From NCBI RefSeq assembly GCF_000332195.1, contig NZ_KB235922.1, positions 2,701,322 to 2,765,321 of the forward strand: a stretch of DNA of 64,000 bases, read 5' to 3'. The stretch's first letter is position 1; each line of letters begins with the position of its first letter. Shown here one piece after another: positions 3,456 through 40,900 of the stretch. The stretch is from Pleurocapsa sp. PCC 7319 (GTDB lineage Bacteria > Cyanobacteriota > Cyanobacteriia > Cyanobacteriales > Xenococcaceae). Both the position numbers and the translations under genes were made by a program. The notes beneath the pieces were generated by a model. It was not told the DNA's origin. It was given only the letters and a program-made list of their open reading frames with translations, and made no database searches.

Positions 3456-3464
3456 AGCGATCAA

Positions 3465-10889: not shown

Positions 10890-12152
10890 ATGACCTCCCA
10901 ACTCGATAAAAACGCAGACTGCATCGATTGCGAACTCACCTGGTTCAACAGCATCTTAGAACATCGGATAAAACTTCATTTCGAAGGTGTTCAGACATCA
11001 GAAGATTTAATCGAATCAATCCCGCCACCAAAACTGCCCCATAGTGATGCACCCTATTCCGAAATTGTTCACCAATTCAATCTGCTACCAGCCGAGCGAC
11101 TTATACTGATTCTCAGCGTTGTACCTCACATCAAACCACATCTACTCGATACATTTTTCATTCGCAATCAAAACCTCGATCGCGGATATACTGAATTTGG
11201 TGGTCTGAGCGGAAATTCCCACGGTGGATTCTTGCCCACCGGTGAAACAGCTATGTTTTTATTAGCAGGTGATAAGCTCTCGGCTCGACTTCGTTATGAT
11301 GAAATGTTCAAGAGCGATCTCGTCTTATTCGCCCAAGGAATCCTCTACCTCGATCATCAACAGGTCAACGAGCCACAATTAGCTACGGCGTTATGTTTGA
11401 GTCCAGAATATCGCGAGCGAATTATAACAGGACAATCCTATGCTCCGCCCTTTAGCTCAGAGTTTCCTGCTCAGTTAATTAAAACTGACTTGGAATGGGA
11501 TAACCTTGTACTCAATCCAGTCATAAGACAAGAGATTGACGATATCCTTACCTGGGTTCAAAACAAAGATGTACTAATGGATAAATGGCAATTGAAGCAG
11601 CGTATCAAGCCAGGTTTTCGCTGCCTTTTTTATGGCCCACCTGGAACTGGCAAAACGATGACCGCCTGCTTGCTAGGGAAAAAGTCAGGTTTCCCTGTTT
11701 ATAGGATCGATCTTTCTAAAGTTATTTCGAAGTATATTGGGGAAACTGAAAAGAATCTGGCTAGACTCTTCGATCGCGCTCAAAATCAAGATTGGATTTT
11801 GTTTTTTGACGAGGCAGACTCGTTATTTGGAAAACGTATTGAGACCCAAAATTCCAACGACCGTGCTGCTAACCAAGAAATCTCATATCTATTGCAGCGC
11901 ATTGAAGACTATTCTGGTTTAGCAATTCTGTCTACGAATTTGCGTACTCATTTAGACAAAGCATTTGCGCGTCGGTTCCAGTCCATGATTCTGTTTCCCA
12001 TGCCAAATGCCGAGCAACGTTTGCAGTTATGGCAGGATATTTTCTTAAATAAGCCATTCGATCGGACATTTCGCAGGTCAGTCAGCAGATTAAATAATAT
12101 TTTTGGCAAGGGTTTCCAAAAAACCGTAAGATCTTCAGTCGGGTGTCAGTAA
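10890..12152 (+). pseudogene. Second eCIS-type AAA+ ATPase, 3' end replaced by IS1634
   Basis: From the ATG at 10890 about 392 native residues are encoded. The AAA+ core has Walker A GPPGTGKT (249-256), Walker B ILFFDEADSLFG (DEAD at 307-310), and RIDLSKVISKYIGETEKNL, very close to the ATPase at 3850-5850. The N-terminal half is shorter and divergent. At about 12066 (LWQDIFLNKPFDRT) the frame enters the IS1634 end and continues as non-native sequence to a stop at 12152. The small C-terminal helical lid of the AAA+ domain, about 70 residues, is missing and was not found elsewhere in the window. It could still be translated but is unlikely to be fully active. Confidence 0.85.
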
Positions 12153-17660: not shown

Positions 17661-17699
17661 TAGCGATTGCGCTCCGCGCAGTGGCAAAGCCAATCGCTA
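17661..17699. repeat. Palindromic insert upstream of the IS701 transposase start
   Basis: A 9-bp stem TAGCGATTG (17661-17669) pairs with CAATCGCTA (17691-17699) around a GC-rich loop. It lies in the leader of the transposase gene and probably is a small cyanobacterial palindromic repeat. It argues that the upstream ATG at 17667 is not the start. Confidence 0.6.
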
Positions 17700-17702
17700 G
17701 CG

Positions 17703-19022
17703 ATGAAAGAAACCACTCCCGCAGCCATGCCTCCTTGCTTCGATAGATGGTGTCAAAAGTTTGATGATTTGCTGAGAAATAAAGCACAAAAAAGAGAGTG
17801 CGGAATGCACCGTGCTGCGTCAACTCGGATTTTAAATCCGAGTTACGCACGGTTTAGGCATTATTTAGGGGGATTACTGGGGGAAAGTGAGCGAAAAAAT
17901 ATGTCTCAAATGGCTAAAGATGCGGTAGAAGTCACATACCATAAATTACACCATTTCTTAACTGAAGCAACCTGGTCGGCACAGAAAATAAATGAACGTC
18001 GTTTGGAGGTGATGAATAAATGCAACCAAACCAGAATAAGTCGGGGATTTAGTCTAATTGTTGACGATTCAGGGCATAGAAAAAGTGGAAATTTCACTGC
18101 TGGAGTAGGTCGTCAGTATATAGGAGAAATAGGTAAAACTGATAATGGGAATGTTGTGGTGACAACTCACCTTTATGATGGTAAAAAAAGCTTACCTTTA
18201 GATATTGAATTATATCAACATGGTAACTCGTTGCCAGAAGGAAAAAAAGACCCAAAGTTTAAGAAAAAACCTACCTTAGCCTTAAGTTTAATTGATAAGA
18301 CCCTTGAAAGAGGACATAGACCAGGGATAGTATTAATTGATTCTGGATATGGAAACAATACATCTTTTCTAGTTGAATTAGAAAAAAGAAAATTAAACTA
18401 TTTGGGAGGACTAGCTAAAAATAGAAAAGTTAAAGTTGTTAATTTAAATGAACTAACAGAAGAAATAAGATTAGATGTTTTGGCAGAATCATTACCCAAA
18501 AAGACTTTTACTAAAACCATAATCAACTTAGAAAAACCTAGAACAGTTTGGATAGCTATCGTTGAAGTAGAAATATCGCGTCTTGAAGGAATCAGAAAAA
18601 TAGCTATCGTCATGAATGATTCAACCTTTGAAGATGCAGAAGATATTGATTACTTCATAACTAATATTGACCCATCAATCGTTACTCCACAGTGGATAGT
18701 TAATACTTATTCTCAAAGAAACTGGGTTGAAGTATTCTATCGCGAAGTAAAAGGATGGTTGGGATTAAAAGAATATCAGGTTAGAGGAAAAAGAAGTTTA
18801 TTAAGGCATTTTATCTTAGTCTTTTGCGCTTATACTTTTATCCTTTGGCATAAGCTTACTGGTGGGTTAAGAAGACGTTGGGCGAATAAACCTTTAGACA
18901 CCTTTCCTGAAGCTTTAGAGGCTTTTCGTACAGCTATATCTTTCCGTTTTGTTCAATGGCTCAATCATAATCGCGACGTATTTATGGCTTATAAAAAGAG
19001 TTTGGGCTTTGTTTGGGCTTAA
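17703..19022 (+). CDS. IS701-family transposase with an in-frame palindromic insertion
   Basis: From the ATG at 17703 (MKETTPAAMPPCFDRWCQ) 439 residues are encoded. They contain IVDDSGHRKSGN and GVGRQYIGEIGKTDNGNVVV (first DDE acid region), IVLIDSGYGN (second) and RNWVEVFYREVKGWLGLKEY (third), the IS701/DDE_5 fold. Residues 33-50 are extra relative to the family, in which a KRE-like segment is followed directly by FRHYLGGLLGESERKN. They are encoded by a palindrome at 17799-17852. The rest is undamaged, so activity may or may not survive. Confidence 0.88.
   Translation: MKETTPAAMPPCFDRWCQKFDDLLRNKAQKRECGMHRAASTRILNPSYARFRHYLGGLLGESERKNMSQMAKDAVEVTYHKLHHFLTEATWSAQKINERRLEVMNKCNQTRISRGFSLIVDDSGHRKSGNFTAGVGRQYIGEIGKTDNGNVVVTTHLYDGKKSLPLDIELYQHGNSLPEGKKDPKFKKKPTLALSLIDKTLERGHRPGIVLIDSGYGNNTSFLVELEKRKLNYLGGLAKNRKVKVVNLNELTEEIRLDVLAESLPKKTFTKTIINLEKPRTVWIAIVEVEISRLEGIRKIAIVMNDSTFEDAEDIDYFITNIDPSIVTPQWIVNTYSQRNWVEVFYREVKGWLGLKEYQVRGKRSLLRHFILVFCAYTFILWHKLTGGLRRRWANKPLDTFPEALEAFRTAISFRFVQWLNHNRDVFMAYKKSLGFVWA
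17799..17852. repeat. 54-bp palindromic element inserted in frame in the transposase
   Basis: The core is a perfect 11-bp stem AACTCGGATTT / AAATCCGAGTT with a one-base loop (17822-17844). An outer CCGTGC...GCACGG pairing surrounds it. The segment is 54 bp, a multiple of three, without stops in the reading frame used, so it adds 18 residues and keeps the gene open. Confidence 0.7.
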
Positions 19023-19886: not shown

Positions 19887-20885
19887 ATGAGATATATTAA
19901 GGGTTTAAACAAAGATACATTAAAACTTTTAAAGAGAATTTACCAGCAGAGTAAATATTATCAAGTAAGACAGAGAGCCCATTGTATTAAATTAAGTTAT
20001 CAAGGCTATAAAATCTCAGAATTAAGGGAAATATTTCAAGTAAGTCGCAATACAATTTACAATTGGTTTAATGCTTGGGAATCATCTAAATTTTCGGGAC
20101 TTTATAATAGTCCTGGTCGGGGAAGAAAAAAGCTATTTACTGTTGAGCAACAGCAACAAATAAAAAATTGGGTAAAAGACACGCCCAAAAATCTGGAAAA
20201 AGTCCAATCAAAAATTTTAAGAGAATGGGGAAACACCGTAAGTAAAAAGACTATAAAAAGAATAATCAAATCAGCTTATATGGGTTGGTCTAGAATCAAA
20301 AGAAGGGTAGGAGGAAATCCTATCCCTGAATTTTACGACCGAAAAGTCAAGGAATTAGACAAATTAAAAGAACAAGAGTCAACAGGAGAAATTGAAATTA
20401 GATACGTAGATGAAAGTGGTTTTTGTTTAATTCCATATATCCCTTATGCCTGGCAAGAAAGAAAACAAAAAATCGAAGTCCCTAGTCAACAAAGTAAAAG
20501 ATTAAATGTCTTAGGCTTTTTAAGCAGACAAAATGAACTAGAAGTATACACTTTTAAATGCAGTATTAATAGTGACGTCATTGTAGCCTGTATAGACCAA
20601 TTTTGTGAAAAAATCACCAAAAAGACCATTCTAATCATGGATAATGCTTCAATCCATCAAAATAACTTTCTCTGGAATAAGGAAGCAGAGTGGTCAGAAA
20701 AAGGACTAGAGATTTTCTTTCTACCAACTTATTCCCCTCATTTGAATATCATAGAAATTCTCTGGCGTTTTATTAAGTATAAGTGGTTAGAAAGTGATGC
20801 TTATGAAAGTTATTCTGCTTTAGTAGATGCTGTCGAAAATATTCTCAAAAACTTTGGTACGGAATATACAATTAATTTTGTCTAG
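19887..20885 (+). CDS. IS630-family transposase
   Basis: A 332-residue protein with an N-terminal helix-turn-helix (YKISELREIFQVSRNTIYNW) and the DDE motif of IS630/Tc1 elements: D in IRYVDESGFCL, D in ILIMDNASIHQN, E in PHLNIIEILWRFIKY. It appears complete. Its right end lies within an ISKra4 transposase gene on the opposite strand (stop region at 20890). Exact element ends were not resolved; IS630 elements duplicate only TA. Confidence 0.9.
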   Translation: MRYIKGLNKDTLKLLKRIYQQSKYYQVRQRAHCIKLSYQGYKISELREIFQVSRNTIYNWFNAWESSKFSGLYNSPGRGRKKLFTVEQQQQIKNWVKDTPKNLEKVQSKILREWGNTVSKKTIKRIIKSAYMGWSRIKRRVGGNPIPEFYDRKVKELDKLKEQESTGEIEIRYVDESGFCLIPYIPYAWQERKQKIEVPSQQSKRLNVLGFLSRQNELEVYTFKCSINSDVIVACIDQFCEKITKKTILIMDNASIHQNNFLWNKEAEWSEKGLEIFFLPTYSPHLNIIEILWRFIKYKWLESDAYESYSALVDAVENILKNFGTEYTINFV

Positions 20886-25375: not shown

Positions 25376-25986
25376 AGGAGGAATGCTGAAAATATCGTTA
25401 CTTCAGCTTCATCGTATCAAGTGAAATTAGTCGGTCGAGTTTTGGATGATAACAGTTGGCAAAATAAATCCGCTCAAGCCTTTGATTTGTCTTGTTTTGA
25501 AATTGATTGGCAACAAGAGCAAACAACTTGCCCTCTAGGTCAAACAAGTCGTAATTGGCGTTGTTTTCAGGATGATTCTGATAATCAGGTAGTGGAAGTT
25601 CGTTTTCATCAAGCTATTTGCGCTCAATGTGAGCAGCGACACCATTGTACCAAAACAGCGAAAGCCCCTTGTGTTCTAAAACTGCGACCAATGGCTCAAC
25701 ACCAAGCTTTACAAGCAGCACGACAAAACCAACAATTGTGAAATTTCAGGCTCAATATACTCCTCGCGCTGGGATTGAAGGGACTATTTCTCAAAGTGTT
25801 AGAGTTAATGATTTGCGACGTTCGCGTTACATTGGTTTGACCAAAACTCATTTACAACATCTTGCCACTGCTGCTGCGATTAATTTATCTCGACTCAGTA
25901 ATTGGTTTCAAAGTAATTGGTTTCAAAAAATCCCCTTAGCCTCAACTCGCACTTCTCGTTTTGCTGCTCTCGAAACTTCTATTTGA
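25376..25986 (+). pseudogene. IS1182-family transposase remnant
   Basis: The first frame (to 25741) gives FDLSCFEIDWQQEQTTCPLG, CAQCEQRHHCTK and LQAARQNQQL. A frameshift follows, and the next frame gives FQAQYTPRAGIEGTISQSVR and RRSRYIGLTKTHLQHLATAA to 25986. This is the C-terminal half of IS1182 DDE transposases, including the zinc-binding cysteines. The N-terminal half is missing and one base appears to be deleted near 25742. Confidence 0.85.
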
Positions 25987-26015: not shown

Positions 26016-28961
26016 TCAGAGATATTGGAATACCAAGTCAAAATCGCAAGCAAAGCGATTTGCTTTGAGAATTTCTTTTTGTTCAGTTAGACTTAACCCC
26101 CAAGTAGAGCTATCCTCAAGCAAGCGTCGCATTTGTTGGGGTTGAGTGTATAACTTTACTATTGTCATTGCATATTCTTGCAGAAGTTTCTTCTCTTGAA
26201 CTGTAAAAGTTGGTCGGACAGCATTCAGCAGTTCAAGGCGATCGCTATCATCCTTAAAGGCTGTACTGAGATCGAGTTTCTTAACCAATTCCCATGCTTG
26301 AGACCAGTTTTGCTTGGATTTGTATTGAACAACGATGTGACAGAATCTGCGAAGTTCTGATTGAATTTCATTGTTATTTAATAAACAGTGTTGCTCGTAT
26401 AGTCCGAGATCGAGCAATTTTTCAGCTAAAGGAAAATTTTGCTTGAGACGATCATTTAACAGTTGGCTGAGGGATTTAGGGAGAAGTCGGCTCAACTGTG
26501 TAAATAGTAGTGGAATGTCTTGAGTCGGATCGATCGCTTCCAAGTCAATGCTAATATAATCCAGTACTAACTCAAAGTCACGGGCTTGATCGTTTACTCT
26601 TCTAAGAATGTCTTTTAGTTGAGTAGAGTCTAACTGCCAAGCTTTACAAGCTTGAAGCAAGCGTCGCGTTTGTGTAGGTTTGGTATAGAGATTATTAGCG
26701 ATTTCTATTGCTCGATCCAGCAACTCTATTTTTTCCTTTACCCCTAAATCTGGTCTACCTGGAGGCAGATTTAAATCAGTACCTATTGTCCAGCAGACGT
26801 ATTGTAGTTTCAACCAATCATGATATGTGAATTTCTGGGTGACATCAGGGTTAGTTACCAGAGTTCTCAAGTCATCATCAACTTGCTTGTGTTGATTCCA
26901 ATAATCGCACAGGCTATGGATCAGATTGCTATTAATCCAGTCCAAACGGTTGCTATCTCGCAAACAGCGTAATAAGGTGGTAGCATATTCTGGTCGAGTA
27001 ACGACGAATTGATCGAAATGCTCCCGTTGCGATCGTAACTGTTCCCATGCCGAACTGTTTTGACAAAATTCTCTCCTGAGATTCTCATCTTCGGCTATTA
27101 TTGGCAGCCAAGTTTCCAATACCTCAGCAGGCAATATTGTTCCGACTCTTTTATCGAGAAAAGCAGCAGAGTGTTGTTGATTTTCGTATAGAGCTTTAGC
27201 TAGTTCTTTCCAGTTGTCCCAGGTAATGCTTGGTTGCTGGAGTGCAATGAAAATATTGCTGAATTCAGGCTTTTTGCCCTCAAACCATGCACGGGTTTTT
27301 ACTAAAGTATTACCATTGAATTGGCTACCCGATTCCTGAGTCTGGTCAATCAGGGCTATTAGTAATTCCCGTCCATCTTCATAAGAAGGAGACCAAGTGT
27401 CAAGGACTGTTTGGTAAAACTTATCCTGTTCGGACTCTTCCATCCCTGTTAAATTTGCCAGTTGTGGCAGGTGTTTTAAAGCTGTATTCCGCTTTGTGAG
27501 TAAGGTATTAAGCAATTCTGCTGCTCGTGAATTCTTGGTTTGTAGCTGGCTATACAAATTGCTAGTGTGAATTTTAACAGCATCAAAATTAACTAATAGA
27601 AGTGCAAGTTTGCAGTTGAAGGAGTTATACAGGTCTTCAACTTTAATTTCACCAGCAAGGGAAGTATCTAACAACTCAAAGCGTGCAGTAATATTATCCT
27701 GAAAGATTTTGTTTGTCACAAAATGAGTAGCAAGATTCCAAGCTTTTTGGAAGTCTTTCTGAGATTTATCAGCAACTACACTCTGACAAAGCGCGATCGA
27801 CTCCCGCACAAATTCATTGTCTTCAGTTTCATAAGGTAGCTGTTCTAATAACTTCTGCTTTAATAACAATATCTCAGCTAGGTGCAAATTATCTCGGAGT
27901 TCTTTCAAAAACTGGATTTGCTTGGTGCTTGAAAGAGACTTCCACACCTGCTGAAATATCTGGGGGAACTCCTTAATGAGACGGATAATGATGTTGGCAG
28001 TAGCAGGATCTTCTAGTGTGACGTTATTATCCTCAATGGAATCTAGTTGCTTGAGTAGTCGTGGAATTATGTCTATATCTGGGATATTCAGGATAGCTTG
28101 AAGTAGAGTGACGTAATCAGACTTAAATGTAGTATCTCTGTTAAACTGCCCCTCAAACTTTTTACTACCGTAATTGAGTCGAATAAGCTTATCAACAAGT
28201 TTACCCCTAGAGGAATTATTAGCTTTAATAAGCAATTTCGCCCAATTGCAATATTCCTCGTCGAGTATACCTCGCGCAATTGAGACTTTGCTACGCACCG
28301 AAGCAGGGAGCAATAGCAACAGACTCTCAACAAAATCTATCCTGTTATTGTCTGTTAAAAGTAAACGCTTATCATTGTTCAAGACAGCCAAAGCCAAGAG
28401 AAGTAATGGCTGACCTTCATTATTAGTATCATTAAGGTAGCACTTTATCTTATTGACTTCTTCTTGATTTAACTCCGTTGGCAATGGCTCATTGAGAGGT
28501 TCAATTGGTGGAGATGATAGGTCAGCCTCAAATTTAGAAAAGAGTCGAATAGGTTGAGTATTCATCCAATTCAATAATTGAAATGTCCGACCCTGTAATT
28601 GCTTAGTTACCGAATCTATTGGGATAATAATATAGTGACGTTGCCTAAATGTTCTTCCGCCACTTGTGGCTTCTATTTTACTTTCATCAACAGCAGTTTC
28701 AACCTTCACTAACACCAGATTTTTATTTCCTTCTTCCAAGAAGATGCCTATCGCCTCCGCATTCTTTTCAGGGGGTCTCGAACCCCAGAAGCGATAGGTT
28801 TCCACCATAGTTCCAAGATGTTCTTCATTCGTTAAATCAGTACTACGAGCAACTAGGCGATAACCAGAATCTGTTTCTGTGACGAATTTGCCATAGACAA
28901 AAGAATTATACACTGACGCTAAATTCATGTTAGGTATATAAATGTAATTTTGGGTTTGCAT
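26016..28961 (-). CDS. Large GTPase-associated protein (GAP1-like), third gene of GTPase operon
   Basis: The ATG at 28961 gives 981 residues (MQTQNYIYIPNMNLASVYNS); a GTG nine codons upstream is possible. The first ~160 residues look like a compact mixed alpha/beta domain (GYRLVARSTDL, FRQRHYIIIPIDSV). The remaining ~800 are nearly all helix, with repeated leucine-rich helical pairs and two similar blocks around AWNLATHFVTNKIF and AWELVKKLDLSTAF. No enzymatic motif or signal peptide is seen. The neighbours are a small P-loop GTPase and a dynamin-like GTPase on the same strand. This makes it similar to the large partner protein (GAP1) of GTPase-centred conflict systems described by Aravind and colleagues; the assignment is inferred from layout. 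Confidence 0.55.
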   Translation of the reverse strand: MQTQNYIYIPNMNLASVYNSFVYGKFVTETDSGYRLVARSTDLTNEEHLGTMVETYRFWGSRPPEKNAEAIGIFLEEGNKNLVLVKVETAVDESKIEATSGGRTFRQRHYIIIPIDSVTKQLQGRTFQLLNWMNTQPIRLFSKFEADLSSPPIEPLNEPLPTELNQEEVNKIKCYLNDTNNEGQPLLLLALAVLNNDKRLLLTDNNRIDFVESLLLLLPASVRSKVSIARGILDEEYCNWAKLLIKANNSSRGKLVDKLIRLNYGSKKFEGQFNRDTTFKSDYVTLLQAILNIPDIDIIPRLLKQLDSIEDNNVTLEDPATANIIIRLIKEFPQIFQQVWKSLSSTKQIQFLKELRDNLHLAEILLLKQKLLEQLPYETEDNEFVRESIALCQSVVADKSQKDFQKAWNLATHFVTNKIFQDNITARFELLDTSLAGEIKVEDLYNSFNCKLALLLVNFDAVKIHTSNLYSQLQTKNSRAAELLNTLLTKRNTALKHLPQLANLTGMEESEQDKFYQTVLDTWSPSYEDGRELLIALIDQTQESGSQFNGNTLVKTRAWFEGKKPEFSNIFIALQQPSITWDNWKELAKALYENQQHSAAFLDKRVGTILPAEVLETWLPIIAEDENLRREFCQNSSAWEQLRSQREHFDQFVVTRPEYATTLLRCLRDSNRLDWINSNLIHSLCDYWNQHKQVDDDLRTLVTNPDVTQKFTYHDWLKLQYVCWTIGTDLNLPPGRPDLGVKEKIELLDRAIEIANNLYTKPTQTRRLLQACKAWQLDSTQLKDILRRVNDQARDFELVLDYISIDLEAIDPTQDIPLLFTQLSRLLPKSLSQLLNDRLKQNFPLAEKLLDLGLYEQHCLLNNNEIQSELRRFCHIVVQYKSKQNWSQAWELVKKLDLSTAFKDDSDRLELLNAVRPTFTVQEKKLLQEYAMTIVKLYTQPQQMRRLLEDSSTWGLSLTEQKEILKANRFACDFDLVFQYL

Positions 28962-29145
28962 TGTATAGTCATTCCAATTAATTCCCACAGGTTGATCTGT
29001 ACTAGAAGTAACGAGTAACGAGTAGTAAGAATAAACATTCCTCTGTTTCCTATTTAGAACGACTATATGTCTTGAAAATGATAAGTGAGGAGAGGATTTT
29101 TATATTTTGAAACATCCCCTGAACCCTATACTCACCCTGAAATCA

Positions 29146-30285
29146 TCAGTTTTGTTTTGGTGAATTACTAGTGTTAGGACGGGAAGGTGGATGATTTTGG
29201 ATTCTCTGAATTAACCACTCAACTGGTTCGAGCACATTATATGAGTTTAATGTCACATCTGACTTGATAGTCGGTTGGCATTTTGAAGACGAACTACTAG
29301 GATTTGTATTGATTGGTTGTGAGGGTGTATCGTCATCAAAGTCATATCCTTTCTTCAACTGTTGATTGGATTTACTCTTTTCTTGTGAATTGGAATTGCT
29401 CGTTTGTGCTGGTTCAATTACAGATACTTGCGACTTGCCATCTTTGTCTTGATAACGACCTATAGATGATACAGAAAAAAATTCGCAACGGTTTTCTTTG
29501 CTTGGCTTATTTTTTCCTGTTTCTCTATCTAACTCTAACCGACAGAAGTTTTGAAGACGCTGCAACTCCCAACCCATCACATTTTCAGCTAACTTATCAG
29601 ATTCATCCCCCTTATTCCAAAGCTCTTCACGATCGAACTTGGTCACACAAAATGCCATGTATTGCTCTAGCAGATTGGACTCGCTTCGAGGGCGTCGAGA
29701 GCGAGATCGCTCTTGAAATTCTTGAAATAACTTTCTCAACAGAGTTGAGTACGTCTTATTATCTTTCTTGCTTCTTATGGGGTCAAGCAAAAAGATAATT
29801 CCATCACAAGCAATCAAATAGTCCACGATATCCTTTTCCCTAGACTCCTCGTCTTCAATAACTTTGCCTTTGGTATCCTGGATATTTTCATAAAATTCCC
29901 CAGGGGCATCGATAAAGTTAAGTATGATTTCGGAATTAGCAACACGTGGAGACTTAGGTCTGAGTATGTAACTGTAAATCTCTAACTCTCCTGGTTCAGT
30001 AGGCTCTGGGAATTTTCGTTCTTCCTTGATAGTGTCAAGATTGTATTCCAAAAATGAACGTGCATTTGGGTTAACTTCAACCCACCAATTGCCTGATAGT
30101 TCTAGAGCATCGTAAAGCATTGTCAGGTAAGTAGTTTTACCTGCCCCTGTAGTTCCCCAAATTCCTAAACGTATATTTCTAGGAGAAGCTTGTAAGTTTT
30201 CCTTAAACTCATTAAACTTCTCAGTGAAAATCTTCGTGTAGCTTTGTAGACGATTGCTGAAGTCCGACCAGTTAGGACTAGTCAT
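29146..30285 (-). CDS. P-loop GTPase, second gene of GTPase operon (DO-GTPase-like)
   Basis: A 379-residue protein with a strong ribosome binding site (GGAGG nine bases before the ATG). G1/Walker A is GTTGAGKTT (44-52), G3 is FIDAPGE (D126), and G4 is VTKFD (214-218, a TKxD form). Residues about 280-345 are a Ser/Asn/Pro-rich disordered linker. The C-terminal tail has PVEWLIQRIQNH. The DAPGE form and TKxD resemble the DO-GTPases described in bacterial conflict systems; that family name is inference. It lies 157 bp after the dynamin-like gene and about 180 bp before the GAP1-like gene. Confidence 0.75.
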   Translation of the reverse strand: MTSPNWSDFSNRLQSYTKIFTEKFNEFKENLQASPRNIRLGIWGTTGAGKTTYLTMLYDALELSGNWWVEVNPNARSFLEYNLDTIKEERKFPEPTEPGELEIYSYILRPKSPRVANSEIILNFIDAPGEFYENIQDTKGKVIEDEESREKDIVDYLIACDGIIFLLDPIRSKKDNKTYSTLLRKLFQEFQERSRSRRPRSESNLLEQYMAFCVTKFDREELWNKGDESDKLAENVMGWELQRLQNFCRLELDRETGKNKPSKENRCEFFSVSSIGRYQDKDGKSQVSVIEPAQTSNSNSQEKSKSNQQLKKGYDFDDDTPSQPINTNPSSSSSKCQPTIKSDVTLNSYNVLEPVEWLIQRIQNHPPSRPNTSNSPKQN

Positions 30286-30359
30286 GAAGGTTCCTCCATA
30301 TTTATCATTAATAACTGCTTTGTTGTATTTTTAACTGCACCTGATTAGATTTTGAGTGA

Positions 30360-30403
30360 AGTGAAGCATCTGTGTTGTTGAAATCTTCTTGAGATGCTTC
30401 ACT
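30360..30403. repeat. Inverted repeat between GTPase genes
   Basis: AGTGAAGCATCT (30360-30371) is complementary to AGATGCTTCACT (30392-30403), a perfect 12-bp stem with a 20-base loop, in the 157-bp gap between the dynamin-like and the small GTPase genes. It could stabilise or partly terminate the upstream message. Confidence 0.7.
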
Positions 30404-30442
30404 TTGTCGAGCATGACAGCCACTACTCAGTGAAATGTAATA

Positions 30443-33166
30443 TCACTCCTTAATACTCGATAAAATAGAGATTTTATTCTTTAGTGAAACCTCGTACTCC
30501 CAATTTGGATCGGAAATAAGTATTTCAGATAGCCAAACAGGAACTGGACTATCACTATCATTGTTTATAAGGTTTGGAATCTGATTATCCATTTCGGTAA
30601 ACACATCGTCAATATATTTAAATAACTTACGCTCAACCACAATCATTTCGTATCGATAAAGATTCAAAAGACTGGAAACACAATATTCAGAGACGAAATT
30701 CTCGTATAACTTCCTCGCTTCAGTAATAAAATTGTCAAACTTATCGGGAGACAAATTCTCGTTGCGCATATCTTCGGACTTAAAAATGTTAAAGAGTTGT
30801 TCCTTCTCTGGTTTGTTATTTTGAAGAGCAGAAAAATGATTCTCTCGATTGGTCATTGTTATCATGGCAATACGCTCGGCGATTTGAGCCATTGTGCGGT
30901 TCATATCATCAATAAACCTTTGAATTTTTGCTTCTATTTCTACAATTTCCTTAAAGCCGAAGCAATGATTAACAATTTTCTGAACTACTTCGAACTTTTG
31001 AAATGCTTCCCCATACAAACTAGACAAATATATTGCTAGCTTTGGTATACGTTGATTGAGATTTTCCCAAAGCTCAACTTGGGCATCACTTAGCACAGGT
31101 TCAATTAGGGGTTTGCCAAACTTTTCAATTTCTAGAATATCGTTGCCAGTCTTAAAGTGTTTCTTCCAAATATGGGGCATCTTCTCCCTTAGCTTGTCAT
31201 CTGCTTCATCACAAATTTTGTTGGCTTTATTTTGTAGTTCTATGCTAATTTCCTCAAATTTTTTGAGTATTTCTTTTCGGAAATCCAACAACTTCTTCTC
31301 AAGAACCTTTCTTTTGTCTTGGATCTGAATTTCTATGTTCTTCTGAGAAGCATATTGTCCTTGGTTATCAATCACTCTTCTGTATTCACTGTCATACCAA
31401 CTGTGGAGTGGGTTGATAATGCTATTTAAAGCCTGCTTACCATCACGAATTTGTCCTTCAATGCGTTTATCGCGAGCAAACTTAGTTAACTCTTCTACCA
31501 GCTTCGGGACTCGACTTGCTTTAAGCACTTCCTCATCACCCCCAAACTTATCATTGAGGCTTTTGTAAAAATCACGATAGGGAGCAATCGACTCTCCCTT
31601 GAGCTTCTTCTGAGCACAGTACGCTCCCAATGCGGATGTCATGAAATATGGGTTGTTACCTCCCCGCTTGCTTAACTCCGAGGAATTTGCATAAGCAGGT
31701 AGGAGTTCGATTAATTTCTCTAACTCTCCTCGTACCTCAGGCGGTACCTCGTCAGTTGGGATTTTGTCAAAGGCGTTTAGCACAAGAAAAATACGTTCGC
31801 CCGATCTCTCCATTCCTTCAGGGCTTATGTATTTGCGTACTTTTTTGAACAAATCCTCAGCACCGTGACCACGAATACGTGATGGACTCGTAATGAAAAT
31901 GACTGCGTCAGCATCTTTAATTCTTTCACTAATAATTATGTCGTGTAATAGGGTGCCACCGAGTCCAGGTAAATCAACCAAGCATACATTACCAGGTAAT
32001 TGCAGTGTCTGCGAGTCATTAGAGTTTTTATTCGACTCAAGATGATATGTTACGGACTTCACTAAGCCGATCCTGCGCTGTTTAATGTCTTTATTGAGAT
32101 TGCTGTTCTCATCAATAAGCTCCATCAATTCATTGCGATCGTTGTCATTGCTAAGTGAGAAGTTAGTTTTTAGAGTGTTCTGGGCATTACGAAAATACTG
32201 CTCACCCAGATCGATAAACATCTGGGTTAAGTCTTTAAATTCTTGTCGAGTTTCTTCTTGTTGAGCTTCATGATCATTACCAGGATAATCTAACGATTTT
32301 AATGCTTCTAATGCTTCTTTAAGTTTGTCATCAATTTCACCTTTAAATTGTGATTCATCAAATCCATATCGTTGAAAAAAATTCTTAGAAATTAATTGGA
32401 ATATATTGTCTCGATCGCGATATGTAACAACTGCTCTTTCTTTGTCATTCTCCGAGACATCAAGAAATATTTCTAAAGCTACACCTGTTACAGCACTACC
32501 CTCTTTTGTTGGTAATAGCTCGCGCCCTAGCATGGCATTCAACATCGTACTTTTTCCTGCACCACTAATACCAGCCACAGCAATACGGTACGGTTGTTTA
32601 TAGTTAAATGCTTTTCTGGCACGAGCTAATAGATCTTCATAACCATTAAGGTCTTCAGGATATTCAGCAAAAAAGCTTTCTAGTACTCCTAACCTCTTAA
32701 GATGCTTAAGATATTCTTGTGCTTCCTCGTCGGTAGCATCAGGTAAGTATTTCTTAATCTCGTCAATATTCACCATCTTCTTACTCCATATATTGATTAA
32801 AGACTTAAGTTCTGAAATTTGAGGTTTCAATTCGTCTACGGCTGCAAACTTATCAAGTACACGAGCCATACTTGGTAGTGGATGCTCTTTTGCTTCTGAT
32901 GCCAATTCTTCGACAGTTCGATTAAATTCAGTATTATTTTGTCTTTCTGACTTTACTTCCTGAAATAATTGCCCATAATCCAAAGCTTCTACAGGTTCTT
33001 GTCTAATAGCAATTGCAGTATTTGGAGAGTGTTGTTCGAGGGTTTCTAAAAATCTCTCAAGAATTGTATCTCCTGCCCATTCTCCTATTCTTACTTCCAA
33101 TCTCGACAAGGTGCTTCTCGCGATCGCAGAAATAACAGCTAAAAGTGTTTGTGTTACAAAGTCCAT
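30443..33166 (-). CDS. Dynamin-like large GTPase, first gene of GTPase operon
   Basis: A 907-residue protein with GGGAGA eight to thirteen bases before the ATG. Residues 1-190 are a helical N-terminal extension, followed by a dynamin-type GTPase: G1 VAGISGAGKST (199-207 core), G2 threonine in SAVTGVA (227), G3 VDLPGLGG (398-404), G4 LNAFDKIP (464-469). After the GTPase come ~350 residues of long helices with coiled-coil character (KKLLDFRKEILKKFEEISIE), as in the stalk of bacterial dynamin-like proteins. No transmembrane segment is obvious. It is the promoter-proximal gene of the three-gene set. Bacterial dynamins act on membranes, and some protect against phage. Confidence 0.85.
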   Translation of the reverse strand: MDFVTQTLLAVISAIARSTLSRLEVRIGEWAGDTILERFLETLEQHSPNTAIAIRQEPVEALDYGQLFQEVKSERQNNTEFNRTVEELASEAKEHPLPSMARVLDKFAAVDELKPQISELKSLINIWSKKMVNIDEIKKYLPDATDEEAQEYLKHLKRLGVLESFFAEYPEDLNGYEDLLARARKAFNYKQPYRIAVAGISGAGKSTMLNAMLGRELLPTKEGSAVTGVALEIFLDVSENDKERAVVTYRDRDNIFQLISKNFFQRYGFDESQFKGEIDDKLKEALEALKSLDYPGNDHEAQQEETRQEFKDLTQMFIDLGEQYFRNAQNTLKTNFSLSNDNDRNELMELIDENSNLNKDIKQRRIGLVKSVTYHLESNKNSNDSQTLQLPGNVCLVDLPGLGGTLLHDIIISERIKDADAVIFITSPSRIRGHGAEDLFKKVRKYISPEGMERSGERIFLVLNAFDKIPTDEVPPEVRGELEKLIELLPAYANSSELSKRGGNNPYFMTSALGAYCAQKKLKGESIAPYRDFYKSLNDKFGGDEEVLKASRVPKLVEELTKFARDKRIEGQIRDGKQALNSIINPLHSWYDSEYRRVIDNQGQYASQKNIEIQIQDKRKVLEKKLLDFRKEILKKFEEISIELQNKANKICDEADDKLREKMPHIWKKHFKTGNDILEIEKFGKPLIEPVLSDAQVELWENLNQRIPKLAIYLSSLYGEAFQKFEVVQKIVNHCFGFKEIVEIEAKIQRFIDDMNRTMAQIAERIAMITMTNRENHFSALQNNKPEKEQLFNIFKSEDMRNENLSPDKFDNFITEARKLYENFVSEYCVSSLLNLYRYEMIVVERKLFKYIDDVFTEMDNQIPNLINNDSDSPVPVWLSEILISDPNWEYEVSLKNKISILSSIKE

Positions 33167-33758: not shown

Positions 33759-34190
33759 ATGTCTTCTGATCAATTCGACCAAAGAATACTTGAATTAGTC
33801 AACATTGAACGGGCAAATGTAGGACTAGATTCTTTATCAATAGATAGCCAGTTAGATCAGGCAGCTAATTTACATACAGACGAGATGGTACGAGCAGATC
33901 AAATGTCTCATCAACTTCCTGGAGAAGCAAGCCTAGGCGATCGCGTTAGTGCAACAGGTTATGATTGGACGAGATTAGGAGAAAATGTAGCAGCAGGGTA
34001 TACCACTCCCGAAGCAGTAGTGGAAGGATGGATGAGTAGTACTGGTCATAGAGAAAATATTCTTAACCCCGAATTTACTCATCTAGGTGTGGGCTATGAA
34101 GATGCTCCTGACGATATAACAGGAACTCCCGAAAATCCAGACTTCGATGTTTACTGGACTCAAGTATTCGGTACGGAGGGTTTTAGTTAG
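33759..34190 (+). CDS. CAP/SCP-domain protein
   Basis: A 143-residue single-domain protein with the CAP signatures LVNIERANVGLDSLSI, HTDEMVRADQMSHQ, YDWTRLGENVAAGY and WMSSTGHRENILNPEFTHLG. The histidine and glutamate residues of the CAP cavity (SH, GEN, GHRENI) are present. No signal peptide is visible. In cyanobacteria such domains occur in secreted calcium-binding proteins, so export by another route is possible. It is transcribed away from the GTPase operon, with its own promoter. Confidence 0.85.
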   Translation: MSSDQFDQRILELVNIERANVGLDSLSIDSQLDQAANLHTDEMVRADQMSHQLPGEASLGDRVSATGYDWTRLGENVAAGYTTPEAVVEGWMSSTGHRENILNPEFTHLGVGYEDAPDDITGTPENPDFDVYWTQVFGTEGFS

Positions 34191-34315: not shown

Positions 34316-37300
34316 TTACCTAACTTCTTTTCTTGGAACGTGACAATCAGAGGTAGTTTGAATCGAATTACTGGCAACTGTTCCAGAAACTTGGGAAGTA
34401 AGAACTATTTTCCCTTGAGGAGTTGTATACCATCCACGGGCTGGAGCAGGTAATGTGGCGACACTTTTTGATGTGGAACTCGTTGACTGTTTAGTTTGAT
34501 CGATAGGAGTATCAAAAGCAATGATAGATTCACCGCTCAAAGGTTCTTGGGGACGAGGCGGCAATCCCCCTCTACCTGTAAAAGTCAGCTCGCTAGTATT
34601 AGATTGTCCTTCCCTTGGACAAGCAACAGCAACCTCTTCTTGTTTCTGAGCCGGCTGTTGAGGTAAATCGACTACTTCTAGCTGAGGATCTGGTTGTAGG
34701 GTTTCGATGTTTACTTGTCCATCGATTCCCAATCGAGAACTGGCACTAATTTGACATTCTCCACAGATGAATAATCCTTGAGTATCGATCTGAATATTCC
34801 CTCCCATGCCCATAAAGGCATCGGCAATAACTTGACTAGCTTCTAAAACAACTACATTATCGGCATCAATCCTGATGTTACCACCGTTGCCAATTCCTGC
34901 TGCTCTGGCGGTAGCAGTGCTATTTCCTTGCAAAAAAACATTTTTTGTCGATAGAGTAATATCACCTCCAACACCAGACCTAGTCGCCGCAGACAAACTA
35001 CCTTGATTATCGAGCATAATTGAATCGGCATCAATTTCCAGCGTTCCCGCATCTCCCAAACCTTCGTTAACTACCGAAACCTCAGCTCTATCTGTAATTT
35101 TCAATACTCCAGTTTTGATGGTTACATTTCCTGCATTGCCACTGGGTAGAGCAGGCAATCTTAAAATCTGTTGGGCTAATTCATCTTCGATATTAGCACC
35201 CGAACTAATGAGACTAGGATCAGTGCTTCCAGGTACTGTCCCACTAATTTCAATGGATTCAGAAGCTTGAATATTAACATTGCCTGCCGAGCCTGTTGCA
35301 GCAGCAGAAGAATCTACTCTTCCTCCATCCCGTGCGACTAATCTAGTAGTGTCTATAGTTAAATTACCAGCATCTCCAGCTCCCAAACTAGAAGCTCCCA
35401 GAAGGCTAGCTACAGCTTGGCTGGGTTCAGCTCCTATAACTTCGATCAATTCTGTTGCCTTAACATTGATATCTCCACCTAAACCAACTCCCAAAGTGCC
35501 AGCTCCTACCCTCCCTCCATCAAGAATAGTTAACTTTTCCGTTGATAAATTCAAATCTCCAGCATCCCCAGTACCAAAGGAGGAAGTACTGATAAAACTC
35601 AGCATACTCGGATTAACCGCTGAAAAACCTTGAACACGAACATCTTCAGCTGCATCGATTGTTATATTTCCACCTCGATAATTTGTGAAAGTGTTAGTAG
35701 AGATAGTGGCTCCCGTTTCAACGACTAACTGCTGGGTCGAAATATCGATGCCTCCACCTTGAACATTTTCTGAGTTTTGAGGAGATTCGATACTGAAATT
35801 GTTACCAAAACTAGGTTGTCCTGGAAGACTGCTTTCATCACTTAAAAATATATTCGGCATCATGCCTATCTCCGATGTGATGCCACTATCATTATTTAAA
35901 TAGATAGAATCGGCATCAATTCTGACACTGCCTGAATTTCCCAATCCATCATTGCGAGCGGTGATTAAAGCTCCATCGGTAATACTCAACTGTGAAGTGT
36001 TAATTTGTATGTCTCCAGAGTTGCCACTCGGTACTGGAGGCAGTCTTAATAATTGTTGTAAAGCTGGATCTAGGATATTGGCTGACGAAATGATCAAGCT
36101 AGGATTAATGGAGCCAGGTACAGTACCACTTACCTCTACTGAATCAGTAGCGTTGATAGTGACACTGCCAGCATTGCCTGTTGCCGTGGTTGAAGCATCA
36201 ACTCGACCTCCATCTCGCACAACTAACTGCTGAGTATCAATAGTCACGTCTCCAGCATCACCAGCACTACCAGTTCCTGCTGTTATTTGACTTGGAGTAA
36301 ATACCCCTGGAGTAACACCGATCAATTCAACAGATTCACTGGCATTAATATTTACCTGACCTCCAGATCCACTGCTAGTTATCCCTCCAGTTACTGAAGC
36401 GATATTGCCTCCATCGAGAGCAGTCAATTTCGTGGTGGATATGCTGATATCTCCTGCCTTTCCAGAACCAAACGTTTGACCTGAGATAATACTGAAGCGA
36501 CTTGGGTTCACCGCTGAAAACCCAAGTATCTGCAACGATTCTGAGGCATCAATCGTTACATAACCCGCTTCGGCATCACTAAAAGTACTGGATAATACGA
36601 CTCCTCCATCTCGAATTGTTAATTGCTGAGTTGAAATTTCCAGTTCTCCTCCACTACCACTGCCCAAAGCTTCGGTAAACAGACCACTGGATAATCCTCC
36701 ATCGGCAGTAGTTCCATTTATTTCTAAAGACTCGGAAGCGTTAACGACTAAATTTCCCGATACTCGATCGCCTTGATTTTGAATTAAAATAGCCGAACCA
36801 TCTTGGAGCGAAACTTGCTTGCCCTGTACTTGTATAGAGCCACTGTTAATTCCACTAGCATCAGCGAATGCTTTTTGAGAAAAACTAATATCTTGAAAAA
36901 CAAGCGAGTTATCGTAACTCAATTCCCAGCCTTGAGGAATAGGATTAAGATCAACTATACTTCCCGCCACACTGCCCAACTCAATCCGTCCCTCCTTTGC
37001 TGTTAAAGTTCCACCATTAATATTGAGATTCCCTCCTACTAAAGCTAAAGTCCGACCTGGTTGAACTTCTAAACCCGCAACCTCCCCAATGGTAAATGGT
37101 GAAAAAATTGGAGCTTCAAGACTCAAATTGTGTCCTGTTCCCTCAACATTTATTGCAGCTGGGTTTTGTCCCAATTGCAAGCCCACAGGAACCCTGATGG
37201 TTAACATGGGTTCTGCTTGAGTATTTCTGGTACTAAATACTGTACCATCCTCAAAAATAACGCTATCTGCGGAACTACCTAAAAAAGAACCACCAATATC

Positions 37301-37792
37301 TAAGCTGGCATTTGCACCGAAATTAATCCCGTTAGGGTTAATTAGAATTAAATTGGCATTACCATTAGCTCTAATCAAGCCATCAATGTTAGAAATATTA
37401 CCTCCCGTAACTCGACCAATAATATTGCTAATATCGGAGGCATTATTAAAAAATGCACTATTATCTGTTGCTACAGAAAAGTCCTGAAAACTGTGAAATA
37501 AATTACTATCCGCTCTCACCCCTCCCGTAATTTCTGTAATATTGTCAGCAGAATTAACCTGAGTTCCTAAAGAACTATCAGGAGTAATTTGTGCCTTAAG
37601 AGAGCTATTATTAATCAAAAACCATCCTGTCAAGCTGCCAATAAACCAAACCCAGGAACCAATTTGGGATAGAGCTAAATTCTTGCTAAGACTATGGGAA
37701 TTACCGAGTATACCTAAAGGATAATCACCCTGAAATTTAGGCGCCTTGATCCACACTGGAGTGCTTAGTTTATGAGCAATCTTGATCTTCAT
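34316..37792 (-). CDS. Filamentous-haemagglutinin-type exoprotein (two-partner secretion TpsA), copy 1
   Basis: From the ATG at 37792, 1158 residues. There is a long N-terminal extension and hydrophobic signal segment (WVWFIGSLTGWFLI), then the TPS domain with DGLIRANGNANLILINPNGI (NPNG near residue 152) and GGSFLGSSADSVIFEDG. The body is a beta-helix of short Gly/Asn/Asp repeats. An internal block of about 350 residues is present twice: GFSAVNPS, then SGTVPGS, then GDAGT-type turns. The C terminus has the conserved RGWYTTPQGKIVLT tail shared with the next gene. It is exported through an outer-membrane TpsB pore, which is not encoded in this window. Confidence 0.88.
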   Translation of the reverse strand: MKIKIAHKLSTPVWIKAPKFQGDYPLGILGNSHSLSKNLALSQIGSWVWFIGSLTGWFLINNSSLKAQITPDSSLGTQVNSADNITEITGGVRADSNLFHSFQDFSVATDNSAFFNNASDISNIIGRVTGGNISNIDGLIRANGNANLILINPNGINFGANASLDIGGSFLGSSADSVIFEDGTVFSTRNTQAEPMLTIRVPVGLQLGQNPAAINVEGTGHNLSLEAPIFSPFTIGEVAGLEVQPGRTLALVGGNLNINGGTLTAKEGRIELGSVAGSIVDLNPIPQGWELSYDNSLVFQDISFSQKAFADASGINSGSIQVQGKQVSLQDGSAILIQNQGDRVSGNLVVNASESLEINGTTADGGLSSGLFTEALGSGSGGELEISTQQLTIRDGGVVLSSTFSDAEAGYVTIDASESLQILGFSAVNPSRFSIISGQTFGSGKAGDISISTTKLTALDGGNIASVTGGITSSGSGGQVNINASESVELIGVTPGVFTPSQITAGTGSAGDAGDVTIDTQQLVVRDGGRVDASTTATGNAGSVTINATDSVEVSGTVPGSINPSLIISSANILDPALQQLLRLPPVPSGNSGDIQINTSQLSITDGALITARNDGLGNSGSVRIDADSIYLNNDSGITSEIGMMPNIFLSDESSLPGQPSFGNNFSIESPQNSENVQGGGIDISTQQLVVETGATISTNTFTNYRGGNITIDAAEDVRVQGFSAVNPSMLSFISTSSFGTGDAGDLNLSTEKLTILDGGRVGAGTLGVGLGGDINVKATELIEVIGAEPSQAVASLLGASSLGAGDAGNLTIDTTRLVARDGGRVDSSAAATGSAGNVNIQASESIEISGTVPGSTDPSLISSGANIEDELAQQILRLPALPSGNAGNVTIKTGVLKITDRAEVSVVNEGLGDAGTLEIDADSIMLDNQGSLSAATRSGVGGDITLSTKNVFLQGNSTATARAAGIGNGGNIRIDADNVVVLEASQVIADAFMGMGGNIQIDTQGLFICGECQISASSRLGIDGQVNIETLQPDPQLEVVDLPQQPAQKQEEVAVACPREGQSNTSELTFTGRGGLPPRPQEPLSGESIIAFDTPIDQTKQSTSSTSKSVATLPAPARGWYTTPQGKIVLTSQVSGTVASNSIQTTSDCHVPRKEVR

Positions 37793-37912
37793 CTTTATTA
37801 CAAACGAGCTGTAAGTAATTATACAGATTGAATAGAACAAGAAATAAAAATACCCTTTAAGTTTTGATTAGCTCAATAATCGCTCATTTTCCTTGATCCA
37901 CCTAACTATTGT

Positions 37913-40900
37913 TTATTGAGCATGGCAATCTAGGGCATCTAAGCTCGAATTTTTGTCAACAGTCCCAGAAACTTGAGCGGTAAGAACTACCCTTCCTTGA
38001 GGAGTCCTATACCACCCACGGGCTGGAGGTGGTAAGGTGGCGAGACTTTTTGTTGTAGAATTCGTTGACTGTTTAACTCCATCAACGGAAGTATCAAAAG
38101 CAATGATAGATTCTCCGCTTAAAGGTTCTTGAGGGCGGGGTGGTAATCCCCCTCTACCTGTAAGGGTCAGCTCGCTGGTATTTGAAATTCCTTCTCTGGG
38201 GCAAGCTACAGCTACCTCTTCTTTTGCTTGGGCAGGCTGTTGAGGTATGTCAACTATTTCTAACTGAGGATCTGGCTGTAAAGTTTCGATGTTGACTTGC
38301 CCATCTATTCCTAATCGAGAACTAGCGCTGATTTGACACTTCTCACAGACAAATAATCCTTGGGTATCAATCTGAATATTTCCTCCTACACCCCTAAAGG
38401 CATCGGCAATAATTTGACTGCCTTCTAAGACAACTACATTATCAGCATTAATGATAATGTTGCCTCCATTACCGCTTTCTGCTGCAGTTGCTGTAGTTGT
38501 ACTCCCGTTCCGCAATATAAAATTTTCAGCATTGAGAACAATATCTCCGCCTTCTCCAGATTGAGTAGCTGCGGAGATAGTTCCTTGTCGATCTAGGGAA
38601 ATTAGATCGGTATCGAGCTTGAGAGTCCCTGCATCTCCTGTCCCTGAAGAAGCAACTGAAATCGCACTTTCATTAGTGATATTTAACTGACGATTAGGTG
38701 TGACAGTAGAATTTGCCTCGTTTTCTCCATTTATAGTTAAAGGTTGAGTTTCCCTGGCAGTATTGGCTAATAAAAGATTGTTGGCTAATTCACCTTCTAC
38801 AGTTATTGAGTCTGTAGAATCAATAGTTAAGTTACCTCCATTTCCAGAACCTAAAGTTGAGGCAATAACTTGTCCCCCTGCCAAAACCTCTAAGGAGCCA
38901 GTATCAATATCAACATTTCCACCTGGACCTGTAAATATAGTACTAGCTGTGATAACGGAAGCATCTACTGTAAGAGTTGCCGAGGCATCAATCTTCATCG
39001 AACCTGCTGCACCATTACCTAATGTAGCCGTACCTACAAAAGCACCATCATTAAGCTGTAAGTTGGAAGTTTGAAGCGCGATGTTGCCCGCATTACCTTC
39101 TCCAAAAGTAACAGCAATGATTCCTTGAATAATCCCACTGGGATCGATAATGGTTGCCGATTCGGGAGTCAGAAACCTCAAATCGTCAAAAGTTTCTAAC
39201 AGCGACTCAAAACCAGAGGCATTAACTTCTAGAGAGTCTCTAGCTTCAATTTCAATATTACCGCCCGTTCCCGAGCCAGATACAGAAGCATTGATTAACC
39301 CTCGATCGATCTTCAAGGTATTGGACTTGATTTCAATGTTTCCCCCTACCCCAGATTGAGTCCCAGCAGATAAATTTCCTTGGTTATCAAGCAAAATAGA
39401 ATCAGCAACAATATCTAAATTTCCACTATCTCCTGTTGCCAAACTCTGCACGTTAATAGTTGCGCCATCTCGAACGATTAACTTCCCTGTGTTGACGGCA
39501 ATATCTCCAGAAGCACCAGTTGCTTTTACATCAGGAAAGTTAGCTCTTCCAGAAGTCGCAAATAAACCACCTTGATTCATTCCATTAGGGTTTGTTGTGC
39601 CAATTAATTCTATAGATTGATTGGCATTTATAGTTAATGTTCCTCCATCTCCTGCACCTACAGTTGCTGTGGCAAAATCCGCTCCATCGCGAATAATTAA
39701 TTTATCAGTAGAAATCGTCACATTTCCTGCGTCAAATGGGCTATAAGTAGTTGAGCCAATACCACTATCAAATATTGGATTAGCGGGTATTCCTCCTACT
39801 TCAATGCTGTCATCAGCTTGAATATTAATATTGCCTCCTAAACCTCCTACAGTAATTATTCCCTCGGGCGGTACTAAAGCCCCTGTATTACTGCCAATAA
39901 CTGCATCTTCAACTTTTAATTTTCCTGTATTGATATTGACATCTCCTCCCGTTCCTAAACCTTGATTAGTATTTGTGTAGATTCCAGTTAAAACAATAGT
40001 GTCAATTGGGCTGTCTATAAGTTCTATAGACTCATCAGCAGTTATATTTACATCTCCACCAGCAGCATCACCAAGAGTAACATTAATAACGGTTGCTCCA
40101 TTTCGGACATTTAACCGCTTGGTTTCAATGTTGATGTCTCCTAAACTTCCTCTGGTATTACTTTCAATAACCGCTCCGCTCTGCATTGTTGAGGCATTAA
40201 GCTCAATGTCAGCGGCTTGAAAGTTTAAATCTCCACCAATACCTGAGCTGAAAACCGGACTAAAAATAATTGCCCCTTCATTAAGTTTTAAGGAATTAGT
40301 ATTGATAGATAGAGTTCCCGCCTGACCATTTGCTGTCGTGCCGATAAATATTCCCGTACCGCGATCTTCTGGTTGGAGAGCGCCGCTTAAAGGAGCAAGC
40401 TGAAACGTCTGTTGAAATTCAGCAAATCCCGTACCAGTGATATTTATATCTGATGCCAGGATATTTACATTACCTCCATCTCCGGCACCAAAAGTTGTGT
40501 TGGAAATAAACGAGCGATCGCTGATATTCAAGCTACCTGTCTCGATGTTGATTGCACCACCTTTTCCACTCGCTTCTGGACTGACTTCGTTGAGTATCCT
40601 AGAACCTGAAATTGTGCCATCTTGGATTTCACCATGAAGAGAAAGTGATTCTGAGGCATTGATGTTAATGCCAGCACCTGGTGAATCAGCTAGAGTTGGT
40701 GCTGAAATCTGCGATCGCTTTAAGGTAATATTTTTGCCTTGTACCTGAATACCACCATCGGGATTATTAACTAAATTCGGATTTCCCAGGGAAGATGCGG
40801 CTAACAACTGCAGATTAGCTAACTCGGTGACTGCTTCATAGCCCAATTGCCAACCCGCAGTTACCTCACTAATACTTACTTCTCCTTTGGCAACGCTACC

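Follow-up and report, generated by a model that had tools for sequence, protein, structure and literature searches.

The DO-GTPases were defined as a family within candidate conflict systems (Kaur et al. 2020, PMC7159879), in which, as described there, the GTPase is accompanied by a GAP1 protein that is typically encoded downstream and is composed of N, M and C domains. BELL domains have been presented as small helical domains with a hydrophobic helix, encoded beside NLRs and hypothesized to be membrane-targeting killers (PMC7889193); according to these two papers, both kinds of component have been predicted to act in immunity, and experiments on their function are still to come. Cyanobacterial dynamins have been grouped by their gene neighbours into KGK, tandem, HSR1 and chaperone contexts (PMC5827413), and DynA of Bacillus subtilis is a bacterial dynamin reported to confer phage resistance (PMC8844932). 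Here, we describe an operon of the cyanobacterium Pleurocapsa sp. PCC 7319 that encodes a dynamin-like protein with a BELL-type N-terminal domain, a DO-GTPase and a large solenoid protein. The operon is located within a stretch of 64,000 nucleotides (contig NZ_KB235922.1, positions 2,701,322 to 2,765,321), which is called the window in the following. Judged from its sequence, it is a good candidate for a system of cell death or virus defence and could represent a mobile, GTPase-switched and membrane-acting conflict module, a reading for which the arguments on both sides are about evenly balanced.

The three open reading frames (ORFs) are uninterrupted, located on one strand and found exactly where the original prediction, made from the DNA letters and a list of their ORFs, had placed them. 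The GTPase motifs named in that prediction were all recovered: GISGAGKST, DLPGLGG and NAFDK in gene 1, and GTTGAGKTT, DAPGE and TKFD in gene 2. The features are, with lengths in amino acids (aa):

30443-33166, minus strand: gene 1, dynamin-like protein, 907 aa
32759-33166, minus strand: N-terminal BELL-type (NLR-associated) domain, residues 1-136 of the dynamin-like protein, by profile match
32546-32572, minus strand: P-loop GISGAGKST of the dynamin-like protein; G199, G204, K205, S206 and T207 invariant in all eight orthologues of the first type that were aligned
29146-30285, minus strand: gene 2, DO-GTPase, 379 aa
30130-30156, minus strand: P-loop GTTGAGKTT of the DO-GTPase; G44, G49 and K50 invariant in 10 of 10 orthologues
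26016-28988, minus strand: gene 3, large partner protein, 990 aa from a GTG start
28089-28928, minus strand: N-terminal conserved part of the large protein, residues 21-300, to which many of the invariant columns in the orthologue alignment belong
26016-28001, minus strand: alpha-solenoid of the large protein, residues 330-990, predicted by AlphaFold2; generic in Foldseek
26016-26516, minus strand: repeated-segment tail of the large protein, residues 825-990; additional copies of segments that occur further up in the orthologues
25421-25986, plus strand: frame-broken transposase remnant in two ORFs, DDE_Tnp_1_6 in both

For the large protein, the internal Met21 (position 28928; 970 aa) corresponds best to the starts of its relatives and is a likelier start than the GTG.

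The same three genes, in the same order, recur in other cyanobacterial genera. Among 291 genomes of the order, the DO-GTPase has matches at E≤0.001 in 23 and close relatives (E≤2e-26) in nine, the genome of origin included; the gene for the large protein adjoins in all nine. The eight other genomes encode the dynamin-like protein, the DO-GTPase and the large protein on one strand and in this order, in nine operons since one genome has two (L062-L066 and L068-L071; the dynamin-like gene of L070 was recognised only via its relatives). A further relative of the dynamin-like gene (G404, L067) has neither partner beside it. Scanning named genomes with two short peptide patterns from the large-protein alignment, a non-exhaustive approach, yielded nine loci in Roseofilum halophilum, Symploca, Planktothricoides, Okeania (five, one of them a remnant) and Trichodesmium. 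Three of these loci are additional operons (L099, L100 and L102), with the dynamin-like gene split into two ORFs in L099 and the GTPase gene likewise in L100. Besides the window, this makes 12 operons in 11 cyanobacterial genomes, and the linkage that the original prediction had proposed to test across genomes is kept in all of them. In a sample of the phylum, the large protein had been detected in just 1 of 292 genomes and had seemed unique, an impression that was overturned by the neighbourhoods of the GTPase matches in the order-level sample.

The three proteins also appear to be inherited together, as their pairwise identities across 11 operons correlate with Spearman coefficients of 0.80, 0.85 and 0.88 (0 of 5000 Mantel permutations in each case). 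Gene order kept across genera and co-varying identities argue that the three-gene set is not a chance arrangement. The first gene exists in two versions: L069-L071, L099 and L100 carry a second, very different type of dynamin-like protein (assigned by blastp), which shares 15-18% identity with the first type in the three that were compared. The distribution is patchy, as none of 12 congeners has the DO-GTPase at E≤0.001, and one operon (G340) is located on a plasmid of Stanieria cyanosphaera PCC 7437. Together with copies that are eroding in Okeania, this speaks for horizontal movement; the module as such is well supported.

Several observations on individual copies can be added. The Okeania operons with the second dynamin-like type (L070/L101, L100 and L099) contain two tandem genes for the large protein, the second of which is internally deleted or eroded in two of the three. 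In Okeania hirsuta (L103), only fragments of the operon are present, with flanking genes that are 89-99% identical to those of other Okeania copies. In one Okeania locus (L068, 1273-4319) and in Trichodesmium (L102, 529-3662), two extra genes are located directly upstream of the dynamin-like gene; one encodes a protein of 469-498 aa that matches nothing in Pfam, the other a DUF1822-HEAT protein, and both are possible members of the operon at these loci.

On Pfam evidence, the gene-2 product belongs to the DO-GTPase family, as it matches DO-GTPase2 at 1.2e-9 (38.7 bits; cut-off 27), and at E≤0.01 nine of ten orthologues match DO-GTPase2 and nine of ten match DO-GTPase1. The gene-1 product matches Dynamin_N (4.8e-11; 43.4 bits, cut-off 27), and not only its P-loop but also its G3 residues are conserved in 8 of 8 orthologues. 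Its predicted structure shows a dynamin fold over residues 137-907 approximately, with SynDLP, BDLP, mitofusin, Fzo1, IniA, NosDLP and Mx as the nearest structures. A GTPase domain with G1 to G4, a helical stalk or neck and the overall fold of the model would thus place it in the dynamin superfamily. The genome encodes a second dynamin-like protein of 829 aa (L074, 6534-9023), which is 25% identical over part of its length and is adjoined by no relative of the DO-GTPase or the large protein.

Compared with the described cyanobacterial dynamins SynDLP and NosDLP, including the clade with a downstream HSR1 GTPase, the GTPase here is of the DO-GTPase family and precedes further conserved genes (one in the window, two in the relatives), and the dynamin-like protein of the window differs by its extra N-terminal domain. 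None of the neighbour groups set out in PMC5827413 resembles this arrangement. The best match among defence-annotated proteins is the PADLOC LeoBC model (4.6e-19), which links the window protein to the LeoABC bacterial dynamins (PMC4159319). A LeoA plus LeoBC pair was not recovered, as one gene matched the LeoBC model and its two neighbours had no PADLOC match at E≤0.5; the operon contains no second Leo gene, and the partners are the DO-GTPase and the solenoid protein. B. subtilis DynA, compared by description only, is likewise a bacterial dynamin, the reported phage resistance being a property of DynA.

The N-terminal region sets the window protein apart. Residues 1-134 matched short stand-alone ORFs, of 113-194 aa among the matches listed. 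Inspection of 26 such loci showed that 24 hold a small gene at blastp E≤0.001, encoding 118-194 aa, while L123 has no small gene and L132 had matched the dynamin part only. A hidden Markov model (HMM) of the 24 stand-alone relatives, from which the window was excluded, matches window residues 1-136 with an E value of 7.6e-20 and matched no other ORF above 194 aa in a set of 1063 ORFs. Within 27 genomes of the family, the window protein is the only match to this domain with a long open frame; it is also the only match of the small-protein family in its own genome (E≤1e-4), and in no other dynamin-like protein examined is the BELL-type domain fused to the dynamin.

The stand-alone relatives are found in an NLR-like context. 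A downstream ORF of at least 150 aa on the same strand within 1.6 kb follows 23 of the 24 small genes, and of these 23 ORFs, 16 match NB-ARC and 9 match NACHT in overlapping sets, so that at least 16 match one or the other. Four members of the family (L075, L077, L078 and L079) were scanned against Pfam and gave no match over cut-off. The family, encoded upstream of NACHT/NB-ARC genes, comprises L075-L079, L081, L113-L122 and L124-L131. The C-termini of the small proteins resemble the N-termini of the adjacent NLRs, with a mean local score of 41.2 versus 25.0 for permuted partners (0 of 10000), for pairs that are not independent, because near-copy loci exist (L113/L114 and L125/L126). The test included 17 of the 23 pairs; L076, L113, L114, L128, L129 and L130 had been excluded as broken or lacking a plausible NLR start, before scoring and after the ORF starts had been seen. 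The shared terminal motif, exemplified by ENWQGI..KGGIN.I in L115, is clear in seven of the 17 pairs, and ten pairs score 22 or less.

These properties fit the BELL effectors described in PMC7889193, and the name BELL-type is given here by architecture. In the fold search with the dynamin model, residues 1-136 were covered by none of the matches listed, which is uninformative on their fold. BELL-BASS-NLR amyloid signalosomes were reportedly first described by Dyrka et al. in 2020. The likeness to these signalosomes concerns the family to which the window domain belongs: its members are small helical proteins whose genes adjoin NLR-like ones, and some of them have a terminal motif in common with the NLR-like proteins. 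The window domain itself differs: it has no C-terminal motif and runs on into the dynamin, and no NLR gene adjoins its gene.

A further difference between the window and its relatives is the absence of a gene. All 12 other operons contain a fourth gene downstream of the gene or genes for the large protein, and L063 and L065 contain two. The fourth protein shows the pattern W-x-C-x-G ... H ... C-x(2 or 4)-C at its start, and a strongly hydrophobic segment is present in 11 of 12 (19-residue mean of at least 1.79), whereas the shortened copy in L099 reaches 1.49. Among the seven fourth proteins that were scanned, coiled-coil-type matches occur in L062, in one of the two L063 proteins and in L068; a domain for peptidoglycan binding was also detected over cut-off in L063 (1.5e-6), and a PPC match of L068 stays below the threshold. 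In the window, neither tblastn with ten relatives (all E>0.6) nor a search for the cysteine pattern found such a gene, and in the genome one relative used as query gave a best E value of 0.02.

What stands in its place is the transposase remnant listed above, in agreement with the insertion sequence remnants that the original prediction had noticed. The remnant ends about 30 bases from the stop codon of the large gene, on the flank that carries the fourth gene in all 12 relatives. Moreover, the alignment with the Roseofilum orthologue (1011 aa) pairs residues 896-990 of the large protein with residues 789-881, and the orthologue extends about 130 aa past the matching end. Only 132 and 128 bases of the transposable element match elsewhere, and its end could not be mapped, so truncation by the element is something that we infer; removal of the fourth gene and of the tail of the large gene by mobile-element activity would be the simplest story. 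Taken further, the window copy could be a decaying remnant whose remaining ORFs are non-functional. The five additional transposase ORFs of several families in the window and the lack of a fourth-gene relative in the genome favour this, but all three ORFs are open over 2276 codons with intact G-motifs while the adjoining transposase is frame-broken, and the dynamin-like protein carries a conserved extra domain. A brief time of decay would account for the open frames as well; on balance, we consider decay unlikely, though worth keeping in mind. The five transposase ORFs (977-1645, 12082-13704, 15039-16823, 17667-19022 and 19887-20885) are located left of the operon, in a region that seems unstable.

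The fourth proteins also bear on the possibility that the operon serves envelope or thylakoid maintenance, in which the dynamin-like protein would mend or reshape membranes in stressed cells, regulated by the DO-GTPase and the solenoid protein, and no immune purpose would exist. A peptidoglycan-binding domain and a sub-threshold PPC match would suit such a role, as would SynDLP and NosDLP among the top structural matches, and the conserved contexts of cyanobacterial dynamins, including the clade with the downstream HSR1 GTPase, were read as membrane functions in PMC5827413. A maintenance gene is expected to be more stable, though, and the occurrence of the operon in nine of 291 genomes and in none of the congeners, on a plasmid and in eroded copies speaks against it; an NLR-associated N-terminus would likewise be unexpected in a maintenance system. 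We regard this explanation as improbable.

Whether the large partner is a GAP1 protein is central to the relation with the published systems. The original prediction had compared the operon with GTPase systems that have a large GAP1 partner, and part of this stands: a dynamin-like protein, a DO-GTPase and a large, helical partner are encoded in a conserved operon, and the AlphaFold2 model is helical nearly throughout from residue 290 approximately. The GAP1 assignment is not supported, neither by sequence nor by profile. In Pfam, NCBIfam and PADLOC, the large protein exceeds the cut-off of no family, and none of 11 orthologues matches a GAP1 model in Pfam. Its solenoid begins around residues 290-330, and Foldseek returned generic helical-repeat scaffolds only, none at E≤0.001; residues 4-173 have a predicted local distance difference test (pLDDT) value below 50, i.e. 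no confident prediction. Within the 291 genomes, GAP1-N2 is over cut-off in two, neither with the operon, and is absent from the genome of origin; at E≤0.1 it is found in seven, the operon in none of them. GAP1-N1, searched as PF20012, is over cut-off in none and below it in eight, one of which (G346) carries the operon on a different contig.

A true DO-GTPase/GAP1 system in which GAP1 has diverged beyond the reach of sequence tools is nevertheless conceivable. As in the systems of PMC7159879, the DO-GTPase gene is directly followed by the gene for a large partner, which is the typical position described for GAP1, and the Cys-motif and membrane-spanning parts of the relatives, at least one with a peptidoglycan-binding domain, resemble those reported there for GAP1-N2 systems. 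When the profile of the large protein was aligned with GAP1 by hhalign, the best region (residues 179-248 to GAP1 180-245) was collinear and within GAP1-M. The corresponding P value was only 0.14, however, and of 328 decoy ORFs, 44 scored equal to or above the best of the three GAP1 proteins and 222 and 250 did so for the other two. The GAP1 profile was thin, consisting of three sequences (two cyanobacterial and one from Rhodococcus), as plasmid searches were nearly empty and 386 genomes of the phylum contained none at E≤0.001. An identification of GAP1 by eye, based on three motifs whose order agrees with that in GAP1-N2/M, was not supported by the formal profile and decoy tests and was abandoned. 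Differences from the published systems are the lack of a detectable GAP1 domain and a dynamin-like protein as constant first gene, the word 'dynamin' being absent from the main text of PMC7159879; furthermore, Pfam detected no GASH or FNIII domain among the fourth proteins and the subset of flanking genes that was scanned. A diverged GAP1 appears doubtful to us.

The interpretation of the operon as a conflict module gains indirect support from the NLR-associated N-terminus of the dynamin-like protein, which the original prediction had not noticed, and has to be weighed against a number of observations that count against it. By sequence, the large protein is GAP1-like in position only, and GAP1 itself was not found. 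The original prediction had proposed a check for defence islands; of ten neighbours compared with PADLOC only two AAA ATPases match (IetA/TRIP13-like), and the three operon proteins themselves match no whole PADLOC system. To our knowledge, none of the cyanobacterial dynamins closest in structure is a defence protein. The N-terminal domain has a 19-residue mean hydrophobicity of 1.29, which is only moderate; its 24 relatives range from 0.31 to 1.62, most of them lower than the usual transmembrane threshold of 1.6. Residues 1-130 are modelled as all-helical with a pLDDT of about 50, and the link of the BELL-type domain to cell death is a presumed one, taken over from a published prediction. Finally, the window copy may be impaired, as its fourth gene is missing and its large protein may be short of a tail.

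The two AAA ATPases are located about 14 and 20 kb from the operon, beside contractile-injection genes. The cluster left of the operon comprises genes for a Pvc16_N protein (2877-3464, minus strand), two AAA ATPases (3850-5901, minus strand, and 6153-9041, plus strand) and an eCIS_core protein (10890-12152, plus strand), and probably belongs to an extracellular contractile injection system, beside transposases. On the other side of the operon, two large adjacent proteins with TPS domains (two-partner secretion type) are encoded at 34316-37840 and 37913-41704 on the minus strand, and a small CAP-domain gene (33759-34190, plus strand) separates them from the operon.

If the operon is a conflict module, its parts could act as follows. 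The large solenoid protein would be the dedicated partner of the DO-GTPase and likely a sensor or scaffold, which would detect phage infection or another insult. The DO-GTPase would be the switch that changes its state upon sensing, and the dynamin-like protein, once released from the complex, would oligomerise on a membrane and make it permeable, pinch it or seal it; the infection would thereby fail, perhaps at the cost of cell death. In the relatives, the fourth, membrane-anchored Cys-motif protein might tie this complex to the envelope. In the window, where the anchor gene is gone, the BELL-type N-terminus could now supply membrane targeting or killing. Hence, the operon may exemplify a new class of immune effector, i.e. 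a dynamin whose membrane action is controlled by a DO-GTPase together with a sensor of the solenoid type, with an absorbed BELL-type death domain that replaces the anchor of an ancestral four-gene system. One protein would then couple a necroptosis-like domain for membrane targeting to a membrane polymer driven by GTP; we advance this only tentatively.

Conflict systems with DO-GTPases have been described before, as have BELL domains and bacterial dynamins. An arrangement that unites them, with a dynamin as constant component, a partner in which no GAP1 domain is detectable and a Cys-motif membrane protein, was not found in the open-licence literature, nor was a paper in which both 'Bell domain' and 'dynamin' occur. 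Links between bacterial dynamins and phage resistance have been scattered so far, and in the operon described here a DO-GTPase, a BELL-type domain and a dynamin meet in one place. If our reading is correct, a dynamin would be connected to a bacterial immune pathway that can be switched. The control by the DO-GTPase and the effect of the BELL-type domain on membranes would then be accessible to a simple genetic test.

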